A stretch of DNA of 26,420 bases from a virus. The DNA lies in IMG/VR virus record IMGVR_UViG_3300020174_000058, positions 1-26,420 of that record; one strand, given 5' to 3'. The position numbers and the translations under genes are program-made. Below, in pieces: positions 4,089-12,151 of the stretch (position 1 is the stretch's first letter; each line of letters begins with the position of its first letter). The notes beneath the pieces were generated by a model that was not told the origin of the DNA, did not search any database, and saw only the letters and a list, made by a program, of their open reading frames with translations.

Positions 4089-4556
4089 ATGTTAAGTTTT
4101 AGATTATTTTTTATTGGACTACTCATCAGCGCCGTCATAGGCGCTGGTGCTTATGTTATGAAGTTACAAAGAGATAACATTATTCTAAAAGAAAACGCAG
4201 TTAAATTAGAATCTGCCATATCAGAACAGAAACAAGTTATTGAAAATCAAAAGAAAGACTTTGCTGAAATATTAGAAGCAAATAAAAAGATAAATGAATT
4301 AGTCAATAATCTCAAAAAAGACTTAGATGATTTAGATAAAAGATTTAATAAGAAAGAAAGAGATATTGGTAAACTGGCCATTGAAAGAACAAAGGTCATA
4401 GAAAGAATTATAAACAAAGGTAGTGAAAACGCTAAAAGATGTATTGAAATCGCTAGTGGTTCACCATTAACGGAAGAAGAAAAGAATGCTACAAAGAAGT
4501 CAGAAATCAATCCTGAATGTCCTAGTATTGCTAATCCTAAGTATATTCCTTACTAA
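4089..4556 (+). CDS. Inner-membrane spanin (Rz-like)
   Basis: A 155-residue protein with one N-terminal transmembrane helix (about 5-23) and a long periplasmic coiled coil (about 27-115), the topology of Rz i-spanins. Two cysteines in the C-terminal part could form disulfides. The out-of-frame overlap with a following lipoprotein gene (71 bases) is the classic Rz/Rz1 arrangement, and this, not sequence identity, is the main evidence. Role: together with the o-spanin it would span the periplasm and fuse inner and outer membranes at lysis. Confidence 0.75.
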   Translation: MLSFRLFFIGLLISAVIGAGAYVMKLQRDNIILKENAVKLESAISEQKQVIENQKKDFAEILEANKKINELVNNLKKDLDDLDKRFNKKERDIGKLAIERTKVIERIINKGSENAKRCIEIASGSPLTEEEKNATKKSEINPECPSIANPKYIPY

Positions 4557-4869
4557 CTGCTCAGGTGTTAAGAAGTTAAGTATATTTAAAGAAGAAGTCA
4601 AAAGACAGGAACTAAATTTAGAGAAACCTACACCTCTACAATTAGAACAAATTAAGTGGATTATTATTACATCTGAAAACGCTGATGAAGTATTTAAAAA
4701 GATGGAAGAACAAGGCCTTGATCCTGTCTTATTTGGCCTTACAGATAATGACTATCAATTGATAGCAAAAAACTTTGCTCAAATAAGAAATCAATTAAAA
4801 ATTACAAACGATATACTTGACAAGTATAAAAAATACTACGAAGGAGATAATGATGGCGAAACTAGGTGA
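4486..4869 (+). CDS. Outer-membrane lipoprotein spanin (Rz1-like) with extra C-terminal domain
   Basis: A 127-residue lipoprotein whose gene starts inside the i-spanin gene in another frame. The signal peptide (about 1-24) ends in LTNC, with Cys25 as the lipidated residue. After about residue 50 comes a domain I recognise from other phages at this position: a WIIITSENADEVF segment, then PVLFGLTDNDYQLIAKNFAQIR and a final DILDKYKKYYE helix. Classical Rz1 proteins are short and proline-rich, so this one is longer than usual. It probably binds the i-spanin tip and the outer membrane. The end overlaps the nuclease gene by 17 bases. Confidence 0.7.
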   Translation: MLQRSQKSILNVLVLLILSIFLTNCSGVKKLSIFKEEVKRQELNLEKPTPLQLEQIKWIIITSENADEVFKKMEEQGLDPVLFGLTDNDYQLIAKNFAQIRNQLKITNDILDKYKKYYEGDNDGETR

Positions 4870-5272
4870 TAAAACTGACTTTAGTTATAGAGTAAAAAGA
4901 GTTACAAAAGTTGTAGATGGAGATACAATAGATGTTATATTAGATATGGGGTTTGACATTTTGTTTGCTCAAAGAGTTAGACTATTTGGTATAGACACAC
5001 CAGAAAGTAGAACAAGAGATAAAGTAGAAAAAATTTATGGTTTAAAGTCTAAAAAGTTTTTACAAGAAAAATTAAAAAAAGCAAAAAAGATTACAATTAA
5101 AACATACAAAAATTCAGAAACAGGTAAGTTTGGTAGAATACTTGGAGATGTATGGTGTGATGGCAAATCTGTTAATTCAGAAATGGTTAAAGTAGGTCAC
5201 GCTGTTGCTTACTATGGTCAAAACAAAAAACTTGTTGAAGCAGCTCATTTAAGAAATAGAAAAAGAGTATAA
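4853..5272 (+). CDS. Staphylococcal-nuclease-like (thermonuclease) endonuclease
   Basis: The start at 4853 is preferred because AAGGAG lies 6 bases upstream; the product has 139 residues. It shows the full SNase signature: VVDGDTIDV (about 20-28, metal-binding Asp), RVRLFGIDTPES (about 41-52, equivalents of Arg35, Asp40, Thr41 and Glu43 of staphylococcal nuclease) and GRILGDV with the Arg87 equivalent at about 95. It lacks a signal peptide, so it should act in the cytoplasm, for instance on host DNA. It sits between the spanins and two membrane proteins with 1-base and 17-base overlaps, so it is co-expressed with the lysis block. Confidence 0.88.
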   Translation: MAKLGDKTDFSYRVKRVTKVVDGDTIDVILDMGFDILFAQRVRLFGIDTPESRTRDKVEKIYGLKSKKFLQEKLKKAKKITIKTYKNSETGKFGRILGDVWCDGKSVNSEMVKVGHAVAYYGQNKKLVEAAHLRNRKRV

Positions 5273-5547
5273 TGTTTTTTGATATACTAACACAATTTGG
5301 ATTACCAGTTGCGGCCGCTGTCACAATGGGTGTATTCATTTATATTATTTTAAAATATATTTTAGCAGGTGTAGTTGGTTCAGTCAAAGGTTTACACGGT
5401 ATTATTATGGGTTTAGAAAATAGAATTGAAACAATGAACAATGATTTAATACACATTGATACTTTAATTTCACACTCATTACACTTAAAACCAGATTTAG
5501 ATAGAATAGCAAGAGCTGACGGTAAAAAAGACGCTAGACGAGATTAA
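5272..5547 (+). CDS. Small membrane protein with C-terminal coiled coil (paralog A)
   Basis: A 91-residue protein starting on a TAATG junction with the nuclease gene. One transmembrane helix (about 10-35) after an ILTQFGLP start, then a charged helix with NRIETMNNDLIHID (about 50-63) and a basic tail. It is clearly paralogous to the next gene, which has the same layout and matching residues (ILNQYG; DNDLIRI). Topology is compatible with a holin or a lysis regulator but also with other phage membrane proteins. No known family named with confidence. Confidence 0.65.
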   Translation: MFFDILTQFGLPVAAAVTMGVFIYIILKYILAGVVGSVKGLHGIIMGLENRIETMNNDLIHIDTLISHSLHLKPDLDRIARADGKKDARRD

Positions 5548-5798
5548 TGACTGTATTAGAAATATTAAATCAATATGGATTTGCTACCTTGGCCGCTATT
5601 GGTATGGGCTGGTTTATATTTTTTATCTATACCTATATCACACAAGAAGTTACAAGTAAACTAGGTGAAGCAAATAAAGCCTTAATTGCTCTTTTAGACA
5701 AGATAAGAAGATTAGATAATGATTTGATTAGAATTAAATCTAAATTGAACACTATTTTGACATTAAGAGAAGAACAAGATAAGAAAAACAAAGACTAA
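5547..5798 (+). CDS. Small membrane protein with C-terminal coiled coil (paralog B)
   Basis: An 83-residue protein overlapping paralog A by one base (TAATG). Residues 3-8 (LEILNQYG) and one transmembrane segment (about 12-33) are followed by a coiled coil with KIRRLDNDLIRIKSKL (about 51-66). Compared with paralog A the membrane helix is more aromatic and the tail shorter. The tandem duplication suggests a hetero-oligomeric pair. The gene ends just before the late promoter of the curli operon. Confidence 0.65.
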   Translation: MTVLEILNQYGFATLAAIGMGWFIFFIYTYITQEVTSKLGEANKALIALLDKIRRLDNDLIRIKSKLNTILTLREEQDKKNKD

Positions 5799-5815: not shown

Positions 5816-6274
5816 ATGAAAACACTTATAAAATATAGTGTTTTCTTTGGACTTTTACTATTATCCACATCATTACAGTCAAGTGAATTGACACAAGAAT
5901 TTAAGAACCCATCCTTTAGTGGAAATGGTTACTCAAATCACGTGTTATCAATACAACAACTTGAACACCAAAGAGAGCAAAAGATAAAAGAAGACAAAGA
6001 AGCCGCTGAAAGGCAGGCTAAACGTGACGAAGACAATAAGACAATCAATCGTTTTATTGCTAACGTTGAAAGTAGAATTTACGCTAACATATCAAAACAA
6101 TTAGTTGACAATATGTTTAGTGATACTGGACAAACATCTGGTACGGCTGAGATAGAGGGTGCTACAATTGTTTGGAATAAAGATAGTGACTTAGGTACGA
6201 TTGCTATTACCATAACGGAAGCTGACGGCACCATAACAACATTAACAGTACCGATTGGAGATTTCGGTTTCTAA
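5816..6274 (+). CDS. csgF: Curli assembly protein CsgF
   Basis: A 152-residue protein with a signal peptide (about 1-22). The mature N-terminus has the CsgF hallmark F-x-NP-x-F-x-GN (QEFKNPSFSGNGYSNHVL, about 27-44) followed by a Q-rich helix, closely like E. coli CsgF, whose N-terminal peptide plugs into the CsgG channel. The middle (about 48-100) is a longer charged helix than in E. coli. The C-terminal beta part (about 108-152) is typical. Role: caps the CsgG pore at the cell surface and hands curlin subunits to the growing fibre. It overlaps csgG by one base, the usual coupling of these partners. Confidence 0.9.
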   Translation: MKTLIKYSVFFGLLLLSTSLQSSELTQEFKNPSFSGNGYSNHVLSIQQLEHQREQKIKEDKEAAERQAKRDEDNKTINRFIANVESRIYANISKQLVDNMFSDTGQTSGTAEIEGATIVWNKDSDLGTIAITITEADGTITTLTVPIGDFGF

Positions 6275-7071
6275 TGTTAAAATTTTTAACGGTGGCGTTA
6301 ATAGCTGTTTTCTTAAACGGTTGTGCTACTGTACCAAAATATGAAGACCCTAAACTGTCTATCTCTCCTTTACAAAAGAAGTTTAAAGAGATAAAACCTT
6401 TAGATGGTCCACAGATTACAATTGCTGTCTATTCATTTTCAGATAAGACAGGTCAAAGAAAACCAAGTCAAAAGTTTTCTCAATTAAGTTCAGCAGTTAC
6501 ACAAGGTGCTGAAGTTTGGGTGATACAGGCATTACAAGAAGTTGGTAATAGTAGTTGGTTTAAAGTAGTAGAAAGAATTGGATTAGATAATCTAATCAAA
6601 GAACGACAGTTAATTCGTTCTACCAGAGAACAATACGAAGAAGAAAAAAATAAAAGATTAAAACCTTTATTGTTTGCTGGTTTAATTGTTGAGGGTGCTG
6701 TAGTTGGTTATGATTCAAATGTAGCAACTGGCGGTGCTGGTGCTAGATATTTGGGAATAGGATTACAAACTCAATATAGAGTAGATAATGTAACTGTTTC
6801 AATGAGAGTAGTAAGTGTATCCACAGGAGAAGTATTACTTTCAGTAGCAGTTGAAAAACAAATTTTATCAGTTTCTCAAGGCGGTGATGTGTTTAAGTTT
6901 TTAGATATGGGTACAAGAGCAGTAGAGATTGAATCAGGAACAACGGTAAATGAACCTGTTAATTATGCTGTAAGAGCAGCAATAGAACAGGCCGTAGTCG
7001 AAATGATATTAAAAGGTGAAGCAAAAAACCTTTGGAAGTTTAAACAAGGAGATAAAGTAAATGTTAAATAA
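6274..7071 (+). CDS. csgG: Curli secretion pore lipoprotein CsgG
   Basis: A 265-residue lipoprotein with lipobox FLNGC (Cys17). Conserved CsgG blocks are all visible: AVYSFSDKTGQRKP (about 51-64), FKVVERIGLDNLIKERQLIRS (about 96-116), VVGYDSNVATGGAGARYLGIG (about 143-163, transmembrane hairpin region), VVSVSTGEVLLS (about 179-190) and the NEPVN...AIEQAV stretch (about 226-241). It would form the nonameric outer-membrane channel that exports unfolded curlins. The constriction loop after GQRKP differs from E. coli (no Tyr/Asn at the expected places). Start coupled to csgF by TAATG. Full length with no frameshift. Confidence 0.95.
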   Translation: MLKFLTVALIAVFLNGCATVPKYEDPKLSISPLQKKFKEIKPLDGPQITIAVYSFSDKTGQRKPSQKFSQLSSAVTQGAEVWVIQALQEVGNSSWFKVVERIGLDNLIKERQLIRSTREQYEEEKNKRLKPLLFAGLIVEGAVVGYDSNVATGGAGARYLGIGLQTQYRVDNVTVSMRVVSVSTGEVLLSVAVEKQILSVSQGGDVFKFLDMGTRAVEIESGTTVNEPVNYAVRAAIEQAVVEMILKGEAKNLWKFKQGDKVNVK

Positions 7072-7774
7072 ACTAACAATTATATTATTTACATTATTGT
7101 TTGGTGTTAACGTTTATGCTAATGATATTTATATAGACCAAGTTGGTGATAGCTTAGATTTAGATATAGTGCAAGATGGTCAAAACAACAAAATTGGTAC
7201 ATCTTTAGTTGACGCTGATTTTGATGGTGATAATATGACGTTTAGTATTACTCAAACAGGTAACACTAACGAAATCACAGCAGACATACAAGGAAATACA
7301 TACACTGGTACTTGGGCGTTTACAGGTAACTCAAACACAGTTGACTTACTTTGTGATAGTTCAGCAAACGGAAATTGTGAAACTGTAACTTTAAATATCA
7401 CAACAACAGGTGATAGTAACGCTTACACAATTAACATTGGTGAAACTGGTGATGCTGAAAATGCTACAATTGCTTTTACAGTAACAGGTGATAATTCAGT
7501 TATCAACACAGATGTAGATGGTACAAATTCAGACATTACTGTAACAATGAATAACTCCGCTTCATTAGCAACAACAAGTGCTAATTCAGATGAGGGTAAC
7601 CAACTAGACTTAACTCAAACTGGAAACGGTGATAGTTTAGGTCATAGTATTACTTTAAACATCACAGGCGGTGGTAGTACATACACAGTAACACAATCTG
7701 GTATCTATGATAATAAAGTTGACGCTACATTTAATGGTGATAGCCAAGACGTAGATATTACACAATCTGATTAA
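7061..7774 (+). CDS. Secreted curlin-repeat (CsgA/CsgB-like) protein
   Basis: A 237-residue protein with AAGGAG before the start and an 11-base overlap with csgG. Signal peptide about 1-20 (VYA|ND). The mature chain is Asn/Asp/Thr/Gly-rich and has repeated strand-turn units of the curlin type: IYIDQVGDSLDLDIVQDG (about 23-40), FSITQTGNTNEI (about 61-72), LDLTQTGNGDSLGHSI (about 182-197), YTVTQSGIYDNKV (about 208-220) and a final VDITQSD. Several middle units lack the Gln. One Cys pair (98 and 106). It is the natural substrate of the adjacent CsgG pore, either the main fibre subunit or a minor one. Not assigned csgA or csgB because the repeats are degenerate. Confidence 0.85.
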   Translation: MLNKLTIILFTLLFGVNVYANDIYIDQVGDSLDLDIVQDGQNNKIGTSLVDADFDGDNMTFSITQTGNTNEITADIQGNTYTGTWAFTGNSNTVDLLCDSSANGNCETVTLNITTTGDSNAYTINIGETGDAENATIAFTVTGDNSVINTDVDGTNSDITVTMNNSASLATTSANSDEGNQLDLTQTGNGDSLGHSITLNITGGGSTYTVTQSGIYDNKVDATFNGDSQDVDITQSD

Positions 7775-7831: not shown

Positions 7832-8932
7832 ATGCGAATATTGAGTTTTATAATTTTATTGATAATAACTTCTAACACTGCTTTTGCCAATATTGGTAAA
7901 GTAAGTGAACATAAAGGTTCAGGCCTTATCAAAAGGACAACTGGCGATAAGGTTGAAACCAATTTAGAAACTGATGTGTTTTCAATGGACGAAGTTTCTA
8001 CTGGACAAGGTAGAACAGGTATTACGTTTGTTGATGATACTAAAGTTGAATTGACTGAACACTCCAAATTAGTCATTGATGAATTTGTTTACGACCCCAA
8101 TACAAACACAGGTGCTTTAAGTTTAAAAGCAAGTTTAGGAAGTGTTCGTTATGCGAGTGGTCAAATAGCAAAGAACAGTAAGCAGAATGTAAAAATATCC
8201 ACACCAACTGCCACAATTGCTGTTAGAGGTACAGACTTTGCTATGATTATAGATGAGTTAGGTGGTTCTACAATCTTATTGTTACCAAGTTGTGATACAA
8301 CAGGACTATGTTATGTAGGAGAAATTGAAGTTATATCAGACGCAGGCCAAGTGATTATGAATCAGGCCTTTCAAGCTACAAGAGTAGAGGCGCCTGAAAG
8401 TAAACCATTTAAACCTATCTTGGTTGATGTAAATGAAAGTATGATTTCTAATCTTCTCATTTTATCTCCACCTAAAAATTTAAATACTGAAGAAAATGCT
8501 AATGAAAGAAAAGCAGTTGCTGATGTTTTAGATATAGACTTTTTAGAAATAGATATTTTAAATGAAGATTTACTATCAACAAAAGATGATGATAACTTTG
8601 AAGAATTAGATGTTGATTATTTGGCACAAGACTTTTTATCTGATGTATTAGACGCTATCAATAAAGTATTAGCAGAAAGTTTTTTAAGTCAGTTGACAGA
8701 TGTATTTGTTAAGAAGAAACAAAAGACAGGACAAGATACAGAAACAGGTATTATTATAATTGACAATGGAACATTTTGGGAGTTTAGACGAGAAGACACT
8801 AACAATTTTGTTAGATTACGATTAAGTAAATCAAGTGAGTATATTATCAATTTAACACAAGGTGATTTTGTAACAAGAGATTACATAATAGGAGATGGTA
8901 GTTTAAACAATATAGACATCTATCAAAAATAA
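7832..8932 (+). CDS. Exported FecR-domain protein with curlin-like C-terminus
   Basis: A 366-residue protein with signal peptide about 1-19 (AFA|NI). Residues about 48-140 form a FecR domain: VFSMDEVSTGQGRTGITFVDDTKVEL..., LSLKASLGSVRYASG and a closing STPTATIAVRGTDF, the hallmark of this family. About 150-160 contains a Cys pair (SCDTTGLC). About 228-290 is an acidic linker with repeated DVLDIDFL-like units. The last 60 residues have strand-turn units with INLTQGDF and NIDIYQK, reminiscent of curlin repeats. FecR domains of this stand-alone type accompany CHASE2 cyclases in cellular genomes (from memory). It may sense or nucleate fibre material in the periplasm or at the surface; inference. 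Confidence 0.8.
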   Translation: MRILSFIILLIITSNTAFANIGKVSEHKGSGLIKRTTGDKVETNLETDVFSMDEVSTGQGRTGITFVDDTKVELTEHSKLVIDEFVYDPNTNTGALSLKASLGSVRYASGQIAKNSKQNVKISTPTATIAVRGTDFAMIIDELGGSTILLLPSCDTTGLCYVGEIEVISDAGQVIMNQAFQATRVEAPESKPFKPILVDVNESMISNLLILSPPKNLNTEENANERKAVADVLDIDFLEIDILNEDLLSTKDDDNFEELDVDYLAQDFLSDVLDAINKVLAESFLSQLTDVFVKKKQKTGQDTETGIIIIDNGTFWEFRREDTNNFVRLRLSKSSEYIINLTQGDFVTRDYIIGDGSLNNIDIYQK

Positions 8933-8933
8933 T

Positions 8934-10226
8934 ATGTTTTATAAAATTTTAAAAAAGTTTGTTATCTATTTGTTTATCTGGATGGTATTCTTTTCTATAG
9001 TAGATAAAGTAAAAGCAGATTTATATTACGACACTTACGCTGGTACAGGTGCCACGCCAAGTTTTCCAGGTAATGGTGGTAGTTTAACATATCCCACAAA
9101 ATTAAGTTCAGGTACAATATCAAGTATAGATTACAATTGGGGAAGTGGTTATGTATTAGACTCTGGTAGAAACGAAAGGGTTATTGTACATATGTATGGT
9201 TACATCACCATACCAGACACAGGTTCACAGGACATACAGTTCTATCTATATGCTGATGATGGTGTGTATATGAAATTAGATGATACAGTTGTCATTAACG
9301 ATTGGCAAGAGCAAGGTGCTGGTACTTGGAACTATGTTTCAACAGACCAAACACTCACAGGTGGACAAACTTATTATATTGATATGTGGTGGTATGAAAA
9401 CGGTGGAGGTGCCGCCGTTAAGTTATATTGGGACCAAACAGGTTCAGTTGCGATTGTTCCTGCTTCAACATATTCTTTAACAGAACCAACACCTACTTCA
9501 GCTGCTACTTCAACACAAACAAGTTTAAGAACAACAACAAGAAATATTACCAATTCAGGTAATGCTATTTACATTGACCAAGCTGGAACTAATTTAGATT
9601 TAGATGTAGTACAAGACGGTGACGATAATTTAATTGCTGGTACAAGTACAACATCAAGTACAATAACAGACGCTAACATAAGTGGTGATTACAATACAGT
9701 AAATCTATCACAAAAGAGTGATAACAATGTTTTACTATTTGGTGTAAATGGTGACCATAATGATTTAACGGTATCACAAGGCGACAATGTAAATGACACA
9801 GGTGGTCATAGAGCAATTGTAGATGTAACAGGTAATTATAATAGTACATCATTGACACAATACGACACAGGTTTTGGTTCAGGTCAATTCGCTGACATAA
9901 ATATTTCTGGTAATGATAATACAATTACATCAACACAAAGAGAAACCGACAAAATGTTATTCATAGATGTCAACGGTTCTGATAATACTATAACAACTGA
10001 CCAAAAAGATTCAGGTCAACATTTTTTAGATATTACTGTAGGTTCAAATCAAACTGTAAGTGTAACTCAACAAGGTACAGGTGACCACGCTGCTACTATT
10101 GATATGGGTGGTTATTCAGCTGGACTTTCACTAGACCAAAATTCATCAACTGACCAAAATTATGTATTAGAACAAACTTGTGCTAATGTATCTGGTTGTG
10201 GTACAACAAGCGTAACTCAAAATTAA
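8934..10226 (+). CDS. PA14-domain/curlin-repeat fusion, secreted
   Basis: A 430-residue protein, one base after the FecR gene. Signal peptide about 1-28 (KVKA|DL). Residues about 30-180 are a PA14-type domain: YGYITIPDTGSQDIQFYLYA, DDGVYMKLDDTVVINDW (about 108-124) and YYIDMWWYENGGGAAVKLYW (about 147-166), the beta-barrel with DDG motif found in glycan-binding adhesins and glycosidases. A Thr/Ser linker (about 182-208) joins it to about 220 residues of curlin-like repeats from residue 211 (IYIDQAGTNLDLDVVQDG) to the end (TSVTQN), with at least eight units ending in Q. The first unit is nearly identical to that of the 7061 protein. A Cys pair lies at 416 and 422. Inferred: a fibre-borne adhesin exported by CsgG. 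Confidence 0.85.
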   Translation: MFYKILKKFVIYLFIWMVFFSIVDKVKADLYYDTYAGTGATPSFPGNGGSLTYPTKLSSGTISSIDYNWGSGYVLDSGRNERVIVHMYGYITIPDTGSQDIQFYLYADDGVYMKLDDTVVINDWQEQGAGTWNYVSTDQTLTGGQTYYIDMWWYENGGGAAVKLYWDQTGSVAIVPASTYSLTEPTPTSAATSTQTSLRTTTRNITNSGNAIYIDQAGTNLDLDVVQDGDDNLIAGTSTTSSTITDANISGDYNTVNLSQKSDNNVLLFGVNGDHNDLTVSQGDNVNDTGGHRAIVDVTGNYNSTSLTQYDTGFGSGQFADINISGNDNTITSTQRETDKMLFIDVNGSDNTITTDQKDSGQHFLDITVGSNQTVSVTQQGTGDHAATIDMGGYSAGLSLDQNSSTDQNYVLEQTCANVSGCGTTSVTQN

Positions 10227-12151
10227 TGAAGAAAATATTAACACATTGGACAATAGCATTTGTAACATTATTTGTTATTACATTTATAGGTTTAAAAGAC
10301 CCACAAGTTAAAGAGATATTAAGACTAAAAGGTTTTGATTTATTATTACAATCAGAACCAAAAGAAATTTCACAAGACATACACGTTGTAAGTATAGATG
10401 AAAAGGCCATAGAGAAGTATGGACAATGGCCTTGGAAAAGAGATGTACTTGCTGATGTAGTAAATCAATTAAGAGAAAAAGGTGCTGGTATTATAGTCAT
10501 ACCTATACTGTTTTCAGAATATGATAGACTAGGTGGTGATGAAGATTTTATTAATACAATCTATCAAAATGGTGTAGTTATAGCACAAACAGGAACAAAT
10601 CAAATTAATAAGAATGCTGTACCAAGAGGTGTTGCTAAAATAGGTGACCCACTACCTTGGTTATTTGAATGGGGAGGAATGTTAGGTCCTGTTAAAGAGT
10701 TTGGTGAATACGCTGATGGTGTGGGTGTGACAAACACAGCACCTGAAGTAGATGGTGTTGTAAGAAGAATACCATTGTTAATGAGAATAGGTGATGAGAT
10801 ATACCCAGCAATGGCAATAGAAGTAATAAGAGTTGCTACAGGCGCACCTAGTTATCAAGTTAAAACAGGTGAAGGTGGTATTATCGCTATGAGAGTACCT
10901 GGTTTTGATACAATAGAAACAGACGCTAATGCTCGTATCTGGTTAAGATGGAACAAAGAATATGTAACTACATCTATTGCTGATTTAGAAACAACTGAAG
11001 TTAAATTTAATAATAAAACAGTTATTATAGGAATGAATGCTGAAGGACTTGGTGGAATAATTGCGACACCAGTTGGAGAAAGATATGCTTACGAGTTAAC
11101 TGCTTCAACACTATCAACTGTATTAGATGGTAAGAATATTACAAGAGTTGATATAAGTTTTATATCTGAATTAGGAGTATCATTTATATTAGGTCTTGCG
11201 TTAATTCTTATTACAAGATTTATGCCTTATTGGGTGATAGGTTTAAAACTATTATCTTGGTATATAATTGCTGTTTATTTAAGTCATTATTTCTTTACAA
11301 AACATTTAATGCTTGTAGATGTAAGTTGGATTATTATAACAATTACAATTGTAGGATTTCATAGTGTCTTTAATAGATTTATTTTAGAGTTTAAATTAAA
11401 ACAACAAATACGAAAACAGTTTGAGAAGTATTTGGATCCAAGACAAGTTGCTATACTTGTAAAGAATCCTGAAAAGTTAAAACTTGGTGGTGATAGAAAA
11501 GAAATGTCTTTCTTGTTTATGGACATTGTAGGCTTTACTCCTATTTCTGAATACTATAAAAACAAAGATGATCCTGAAGGACTAGTTGCTGTAATCAATG
11601 ATTATCTAAATCGTATGAGTCAAATTGTTTTAAGAAATGGTGGTACGATTGACAAGTATATGGGTGATTGTATTATGGCATTTTGGAACGCACCATTAGA
11701 TTGTCCTAATCACGCCGAGATGGCTGTAAAGACAGGTATAGAATGTGCTGAAGAAACTGAAAAGTTAAAAAAAGAATTTAGGGAGAAAGGTCTTCCTGAT
11801 ATAAACATAGGTTCAGGTGTAAACACAGGAACTTGTATTGTAGGTAATATGGGTAGTGAAAACCGATTAGATTATTCTGTTGTAGGTGACGCTGTAAACT
11901 TGGCAGCTAGACTTGAAGCTGCTACAAGAAATTATAAAGATGAAAATGGAAAGGTTACACCTTTGATTTATTCTTCTTATACAAAAGAGCAACTCAAAAA
12001 TATTAAGTCAATAGAGTTAGATAAAATTAAGGTTAAGGGTAAAGATGAGTTAGTAACCATTTATAAACCAGTAACAAACTTAATGGAGAACTATGACCTT
12101 ACTTCAAAAAAGAAAGTTAAGACTAATAGCAAAAAGGATAATAAGAAATGA
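10226..12151 (+). CDS. CHASE2-domain membrane adenylate/guanylate cyclase (class III)
   Basis: A 641-residue protein starting on a TAATG junction with the PA14-curlin gene. One N-terminal transmembrane helix (about 8-22), a periplasmic CHASE2 sensor (about 30-300, with FDLLL, VVSIDEKAIEKYGQWPW and ILFSEYDR), three transmembrane helices (about 312-330, 335-355, 360-380) and a class III catalytic domain (about 425-615). Catalytic residues are intact: Asp433 in FMDIVGFT and Asp481 in DKYMGDCIMAFW for metals, Lys477 as the likely purine-selecting Lys, and Asn558/Arg562 in GDAVNLAARLE for the transition state. Ser551 at the second selector position fits class IIIb. Predicted product cAMP; cGMP not excluded. 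Very unusual for a phage. Confidence 0.92.
   Translation: MKKILTHWTIAFVTLFVITFIGLKDPQVKEILRLKGFDLLLQSEPKEISQDIHVVSIDEKAIEKYGQWPWKRDVLADVVNQLREKGAGIIVIPILFSEYDRLGGDEDFINTIYQNGVVIAQTGTNQINKNAVPRGVAKIGDPLPWLFEWGGMLGPVKEFGEYADGVGVTNTAPEVDGVVRRIPLLMRIGDEIYPAMAIEVIRVATGAPSYQVKTGEGGIIAMRVPGFDTIETDANARIWLRWNKEYVTTSIADLETTEVKFNNKTVIIGMNAEGLGGIIATPVGERYAYELTASTLSTVLDGKNITRVDISFISELGVSFILGLALILITRFMPYWVIGLKLLSWYIIAVYLSHYFFTKHLMLVDVSWIIITITIVGFHSVFNRFILEFKLKQQIRKQFEKYLDPRQVAILVKNPEKLKLGGDRKEMSFLFMDIVGFTPISEYYKNKDDPEGLVAVINDYLNRMSQIVLRNGGTIDKYMGDCIMAFWNAPLDCPNHAEMAVKTGIECAEETEKLKKEFREKGLPDINIGSGVNTGTCIVGNMGSENRLDYSVVGDAVNLAARLEAATRNYKDENGKVTPLIYSSYTKEQLKNIKSIELDKIKVKGKDELVTIYKPVTNLMENYDLTSKKKVKTNSKKDNKK

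Follow-up and report, generated by a model that had tools for sequence, protein, structure and literature searches.

A curlin-like tail on an exported phage FecR-domain protein suggests a link between curli fibre export and a CHASE2 adenylate cyclase

The window analysed here, 26,420 nucleotides of DNA from a marine phage (IMG/VR virus record IMGVR_UViG_3300020174_000058, positions 1 to 26,420), contains a curli operon in which Pfam places csgF, csgG, the gene of a first curlin (curlin 1), a fecR-like gene, the gene of a second curlin (curlin 2) and a CHASE2 adenylate cyclase gene, in this order (Table 1). The same cluster is found in the cultured Pelagibacter phage HTVC008M and in the Methylophilales phages Melnitz; publications of 2020 and 2022 have described their curli genes (consulted portions of PMC7029224, PMC9004378, and PMC9599517). 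Scans of viral contigs yielded 180 distinct homologues of the FecR protein, with identities down to about 37 per cent. At all 150 loci with enough upstream DNA, curlin 1 lies immediately 5' of fecR and CsgG is present upstream, as is CsgF at all 102 loci where the upstream DNA suffices for it. A CHASE2 gene lies 3' of fecR at 57 of the 59 testable viral loci, with the curlin 2 gene between the two in the window. At two further loci (L186 and L187), 5 kb or more of downstream DNA contains no CHASE2 gene, although the FecR protein and its tail are retained, and some divergent viral loci gave no CHASE2 match.

Table 1. Positions of the curli operon genes and of the parts of the FecR-like protein in the window.
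Feature	Position	Strand	Basis
csgF homologue	5816..6274	+	PF10614, E = 1.2e-15
csgG homologue	6274..7071	+	PF03783, E = 2.8e-56
Curlin 1 (Cur1)	7061..7774	+	Curlin_rpt, sub-threshold
fecR-like gene, 366 aa, stop included	7832..8932	+	180 distinct viral homologues
Sec-type signal peptide (MRILSFIILLIITSNTAFA, followed by N), residues 1-19	7832..7888	+	Inspection and hydropathy
FecR domain, residues 53-142	7988..8257	+	PF04773, E = 1.1e-9
Acidic linker of DIDFL/EIDIL/DVDYL units, about residues 222-265, phage-specific	8495..8626	+	
Predicted helix, residues 263-288	8618..8695	+	AlphaFold2, pLDDT about 60-70
Curlin-like all-beta tail, residues 298-366, six predicted strands	8723..8929	+	
Conserved tail glutamine Q343	8858-8860	+	
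Conserved tail glutamine Q365	8924-8926	+	
Curlin 2 (Cur2), PA14 domain and curlin repeats	8934..10226	+	PA14, 4e-10; Curlin_rpt, 6e-8, three stretches
CHASE2 adenylate cyclase	10226..12151	+	Pfam; catalytic residues

The second curlin slot is highly variable. It encodes a PA14 domain with curlin repeats in the window and, at other loci, a different N-terminal domain with curlin repeats or a small curlin of 111–121 aa, and gives the impression of an interchangeable adhesin for the fibre tip. The position after fecR can, in large phages, encode a protein of about 680 aa (L374:6128-8176), the C-terminal part of which, by eye, resembles an autotransporter beta-barrel (ending ...LRGIIRF). On the other side of the operon, positions 5272-5798 of the window encode two adjacent short paralogous proteins of membrane type (91 and 83 aa, both PHROG 18771), and this pair sits 5' of csgF in most viral loci. 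If the label ‘histidine kinases’ in the published cluster was meant for this pair, it is doubtful, because the proteins are much too small for such enzymes and neither matches a kinase. Just 5' of the curli operon, positions 4486-4869 encode an Rz-like spanin (PHROG 812, E = 4e-8), so that lysis and curli genes are neighbours here. Four operon-bearing contigs in metagenome-assembled genomes (MAGs) of Flavobacteriaceae, Pirellulales, and Rhodobacteraceae (L084, L085, L086, and L150) resemble phage contigs binned with bacteria, and such contigs could mislead claims on curli in these three groups.

The FecR-like protein is exported by a signal peptide: its hydropathy peak covers residues 1–22, a simple rule recognizes a signal-peptide-like N-terminus in 167 of the 180 homologues, and the hydropathy profile contains no further stretch of transmembrane strength after the signal peptide. 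The FecR domain, which scores 39.1 bits (curated cut-off of 24), is the sole Pfam match in the protein and was matched in all 40 homologues scanned; the initial annotation had placed it at about residues 48–140. The acidic linker of DVLDIDFL-type units described in the same annotation is likewise present and is conserved (‘LDIDFL..DDLE.DYLEEE...LDIDFLEQNFL’ across 40 aligned homologues). Membership in the FecI/FecR anti-sigma class was rejected on architecture (no match to the FecR N-terminal family and no second hydrophobic stretch). Next to fecR, we found no ECF sigma gene; its neighbours are curli and cyclase genes. The FecR domain region also contains an invariant cysteine pair, C154 and C160 (C-x5-C), and the mature protein has exactly two cysteines in 169 of the 180 homologues. 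Cysteine pairs also occur in the second curlin (C-x5-C) and in the first, and those of the FecR protein and the curlins are possible periplasmic disulfides.

Across the 180 viral homologues, the last 35 or so residues follow a curlin-type pattern, with a Y-x2-N-x2-Q strand and then a terminal N-x-I-x-I-x-Q strand; in the window, both INLTQGDF and NIDIYQK, which had been singled out at the C-terminus, are found. Across 40 aligned homologues, no variation is seen at Y337, Q343, D350, G354, and Q365, and conservation reaches 90 per cent or more at N340, N359, I361, and I363. The protein ends at most three residues from a [NS]-x-[ILVM]-x-[ILVMF]-x-[QM] strand in 175 of the 180 homologues; four of the five exceptions end, by eye, in a similar Q strand, and the fifth (L046) is frame-disrupted. 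A curlin strand motif, [ILVFMTA].[ILVFMS].Q.[GDNE], occurs in 168 of the 179 distinct tails, as against a mean of 22 and a maximum of 34 after shuffling, counts that come from related sequences and are not independent events. Per residue, the tails have a motif density of 0.0192 and the phage curlins one of 0.0173, against 0.0005 for the remainder of the FecR protein, a difference of about 38-fold between tail and remainder. The two Q strands are 20–23 residues apart in 87 of 97 tails (22 in the window), and 22–23 residues is also a common Q-strand spacing in phage curlins. Judged by these patterns, the tail has the Q/N-ended strands at a rung spacing of about 22 residues by which curlins are recognized.

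In profile–profile comparisons (HHalign), the tail (residues 301–366) scored 26.2 against curlin 1, 27.5 against large curlin 2, and 23.7 against small curlin 2, with maxima for column-permuted tails of 14.5, 10.8, and 14.2, respectively. Its scores against non-curlins were 10.2 (CsgG), 13.6 (CHASE2), and 18.8 (CsgF), and other FecR segments reached at most 19.8 against any curlin set. In the profile alignment, the last 41 residues of FecR lie over the C-terminus of curlin 1, with the Q strands matched to each other. Single-profile comparisons of tail and curlins with HMMER were ambiguous, as a control FecR segment likewise beat shuffles against curlin 1, and the curlin 1 profile scored highest inside the FecR domain; the profile–profile test separated tail and control better. 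The Pfam Curlin_rpt model matched none of the tails, whether whole homologues or 20 isolated tails were scanned, and the similarity is therefore weak in absolute terms, as had been stated at the outset. Because the HHalign probabilities are modest (29–41 per cent) and a Pfam curlin match is lacking, we regard the likeness of the tail to curlins (SPECIFICALLY) as a well-controlled resemblance and not as proven homology. Motif density, the HHalign controls and conservation nevertheless bear out the proposed similarity of the C-terminus to curlin repeat ends, and do so more strongly than the initial annotation had judged.

AlphaFold2, applied to residues 258–366 with 74 sequences, predicted a helix and six strands, the latter at a pLDDT of about 90; the full-length model has a mean pLDDT of 43.6, and its usable part is the tail alone. 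The predicted tail strands start 10–12 residues apart, matching curlin half-repeats, in an output that is silent on parallel versus antiparallel arrangement. A Foldseek search with the tail model against the PDB and viral models gave no significant match, the best non-significant ones being antiparallel sheets of the fatty-acid-binding type. Covariation, computed without L046 (a broken sequence that dominated the signal), gave a best parallel offset of 22 residues and antiparallel ladders too, a result that both stacked arcs and hairpins could yield.

FecR and CHASE2 also occur together in bacteria. Among the best matches listed for 240 alphaproteobacterial genomes, 20 of 150 FecR matches are at most 5 kb from a CHASE2 match (0.54 expected); of the matches listed, 12 of those 20 are small FecR ORFs located 210–260 bases 5' of CHASE2 on the same strand. 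When the bacterial FecRs most similar to the phage protein are considered, CHASE2 is no more than 3 kb away for 19 of 103 (0.38 expected). FecR–CHASE2 is a recurrent, genuine gene pair in Alphaproteobacteria, and phage FecR and phage CHASE2 each resemble members of such pairs. The initial annotation had offered two roles for the FecR protein, a link to the CHASE2 sensor and a CsgB-like nucleator; the bacterial pairs favour the former, and the latter was not borne out (see below).

Bacterial matches to the phage FecR profile reach no further than about position 240 of its 373, and within the bacterial set the full profile is spanned only in two phage contigs binned in one MAG. Since bacterial homologues match the FecR domain only, the tail is phage-specific; in this sample, so are the C-terminal 165 or so residues as a whole (acidic DIDFL linker, helix, and beta tail). 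Bacterial homologues end either in linkers rich in Gly or Glu or in large modules that in some cases contain RTX repeats, and this variety makes the C-terminus look like an exchangeable module. None of the bacterial FecR homologues found by profile search has a curlin-like tail, and at five alphaproteobacterial curli loci inspected with phage-derived models neither FecR nor CHASE2 was found beside the bacterial curli genes. A little-described class of exported FecR proteins is formed by alphaproteobacterial FecR-domain proteins of 400–1100 aa (L512–L518) that combine linkers of acidic or Pro-rich composition with large modules at the C-terminus; of the five proteins of this type scanned by Pfam, three contain RTX repeats.

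The phage CHASE2 cyclase is probably active, judging from its catalytic residues. All 126 CHASE2 cyclase sequences retain five of the six key positions: the aspartates that bind metal, the Lys and Asp that recognise adenine, and the transition-state Arg. At the sixth, the Asn position, 84 of them have Asn and the other 42 have Ser.

A curlin-like tail on an exported FecR protein suggests that fibre export is linked to cyclic-AMP signalling. We tentatively propose, as a serious possibility that stops somewhat short of probable, that the FecR protein is the periplasmic partner of the CHASE2 adenylate cyclase, derived from a bacterial FecR–CHASE2 pair and equipped with a curlin-like C-terminal module. 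The ancestral C-terminal module of a FecR–CHASE2 sensor adaptor would have been swapped for a curlin-like one, and edge-to-edge strand pairing would let the tail bind curlin subunits or, at the CsgG/CsgF pore, the base of the fibre as it grows. The FecR domain may then relay the curlin-bound state to the periplasmic CHASE2 domain, and the cyclase would shift cAMP, so that the status of fibre export or assembly would become a signal within the infected cell. The FecR protein would thereby act as a fibre-status sensor or checkpoint, not as an iron regulator. The Sinorhizobium CHASE2 cyclase pathway (PMC13001267) and the Burkholderia FecR–CHASE2 biofilm operon (PMC5192318) make such a relay plausible.

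Several other functions could be considered for this protein. An iron-responsive FecR regulator, the published interpretation for phage T8SS clusters (consulted portions of PMC9599517), would agree with the presence of a FecR domain but is highly improbable, given an N-terminus that is a signal peptide and not a cytoplasmic anti-sigma region with a transmembrane helix, a Pfam result of the FecR domain alone, and bacterial counterparts that pair with CHASE2. The tail could also be an ordinary small periplasmic beta domain, its curlin likeness reflecting convergence of beta-strand patterns: neither Pfam nor Foldseek supports the likeness, predicted turns down to two residues suit hairpins, and the control FecR segment also beat shuffles against curlin 1 with HMMER. 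We nevertheless find convergence quite unlikely, as the profile–profile scores single out the tail on one side and curlins on the other, the tail equals curlins in motif density, and its last 41 residues pair with the extreme C-terminus of curlin 1.

The remaining two readings take the curlin likeness at face value and place the protein in fibre assembly. As a CsgB-like nucleator or anchor, it would template curlin polymerisation with its tail at the cell surface or outer membrane, a role suited to a tail that ends like curlin 1, to a linker that could reach to the pore, and to an operon that encodes no further fibre subunits beyond curlin 1 and curlin 2. The tail, however, holds only about 1.5 repeats and has no solenoid match by Foldseek. 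CsgG passes unfolded chains, whereas the FecR domain and helix are folded and so unlikely to be secreted through it. The small curlin found in the second curlin slot at many loci is a better fit to CsgB, and we consider nucleation by the FecR protein rather unlikely. As a periplasmic holdase or pore gate replacing the missing CsgE/CsgC, the protein would cap curlin subunits with its tail and deliver them to CsgG, with no signalling. This would fit a curlin-like tail that belongs to an exported protein and phage T8SS clusters without CsgE, as given in the consulted portions of Wittmers et al. (PMC9599517), but it leaves the FecR domain and the FecR–CHASE2 pairing unexplained and is, in our assessment, unlikely. 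FecR distances agree better with curlin 1 and CsgF distances than with CHASE2 distances (CsgG-corrected correlation of the FecR domain of 0.56 with curlin 1 versus 0.29 with the CHASE2 domain), which adds to the case for a holdase, distance correlations along the operon being not decisive. Together with the two CHASE2-less loci, the closer correlation with curlin 1 leaves room for a fibre-assembly role, as holdase or nucleator.

The reading that we prefer, a periplasmic partner of the CHASE2 cyclase with a curlin-like end, can be taken further, with considerable reserve, to a phage checkpoint. The curlin-mimicking end of FecR might engage curlin in export and control the CHASE2 cyclase, allowing the phage to sense its own amyloid assembly; more generally, FecR–CHASE2 systems might carry an interchangeable C-terminal module fitted to the fibre or adhesin that is monitored. 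The least understood gene of the cluster would move from a presumed iron regulator to a candidate link between curlin and a sensor that produces cAMP, which bears on the reason for a complete curli system in ocean phages of streamlined bacteria. The proposal also gives a ligand idea for CHASE2 domains, the signals of which are said to be unknown (PMC5192318). If it is right, a virus would here be monitoring its own secretion.

In comparison with known systems, the phage protein has the PF04773 domain in common with E. coli FecI/FecR surface signalling but lacks the cytoplasmic anti-sigma part and the transmembrane helix, and no sigma-factor partner was found. The tail shares Q-ended beta strands with the CsgB/CsgA curlins, its two Q strands being 20–23 residues apart, and differs from them in amounting to about 1.5 repeats on a FecR head, without a Pfam Curlin_rpt match. 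In bacterial FecR–CHASE2 pairs, an exported FecR-domain protein likewise stands beside a CHASE2 sensor (cyclase or kinase), but it carries linkers rich in Gly or Glu, or large modules (with RTX repeats in some), and none was found with the curlin-like tail of the phage. The Burkholderia BiofilmReg operon encodes a FecR–LysM protein beside a CHASE2 histidine kinase, the LysM domain besides FecR being a difference from the phage FecR (PMC5192318), and Sinorhizobium CHASE2 cyclases act downstream of an outer-membrane beta-barrel (PMC13001267). In the consulted portions of the pelagiphage T8SS/curli paper, Wittmers et al. (2022; PMC9599517) name FecR and the cyclase as cluster parts and read FecR as an iron-dependent regulator, with no CHASE2 and no curlin-like C-terminus, unlike here; nor do those of PMC7029224 and PMC9004378 mention CHASE2 or the FecR C-terminus. 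The operon and the FecR gene are already published; as far as these portions go, neither the tail nor the CHASE2 pairing seems to have been remarked on before. The pelagiphage T8SS/curli cluster itself (HTVC008M; Melnitz) shares the operon described here, including fecR and the cyclase gene, and its FecR is about 50–52 per cent identical to that of the window.
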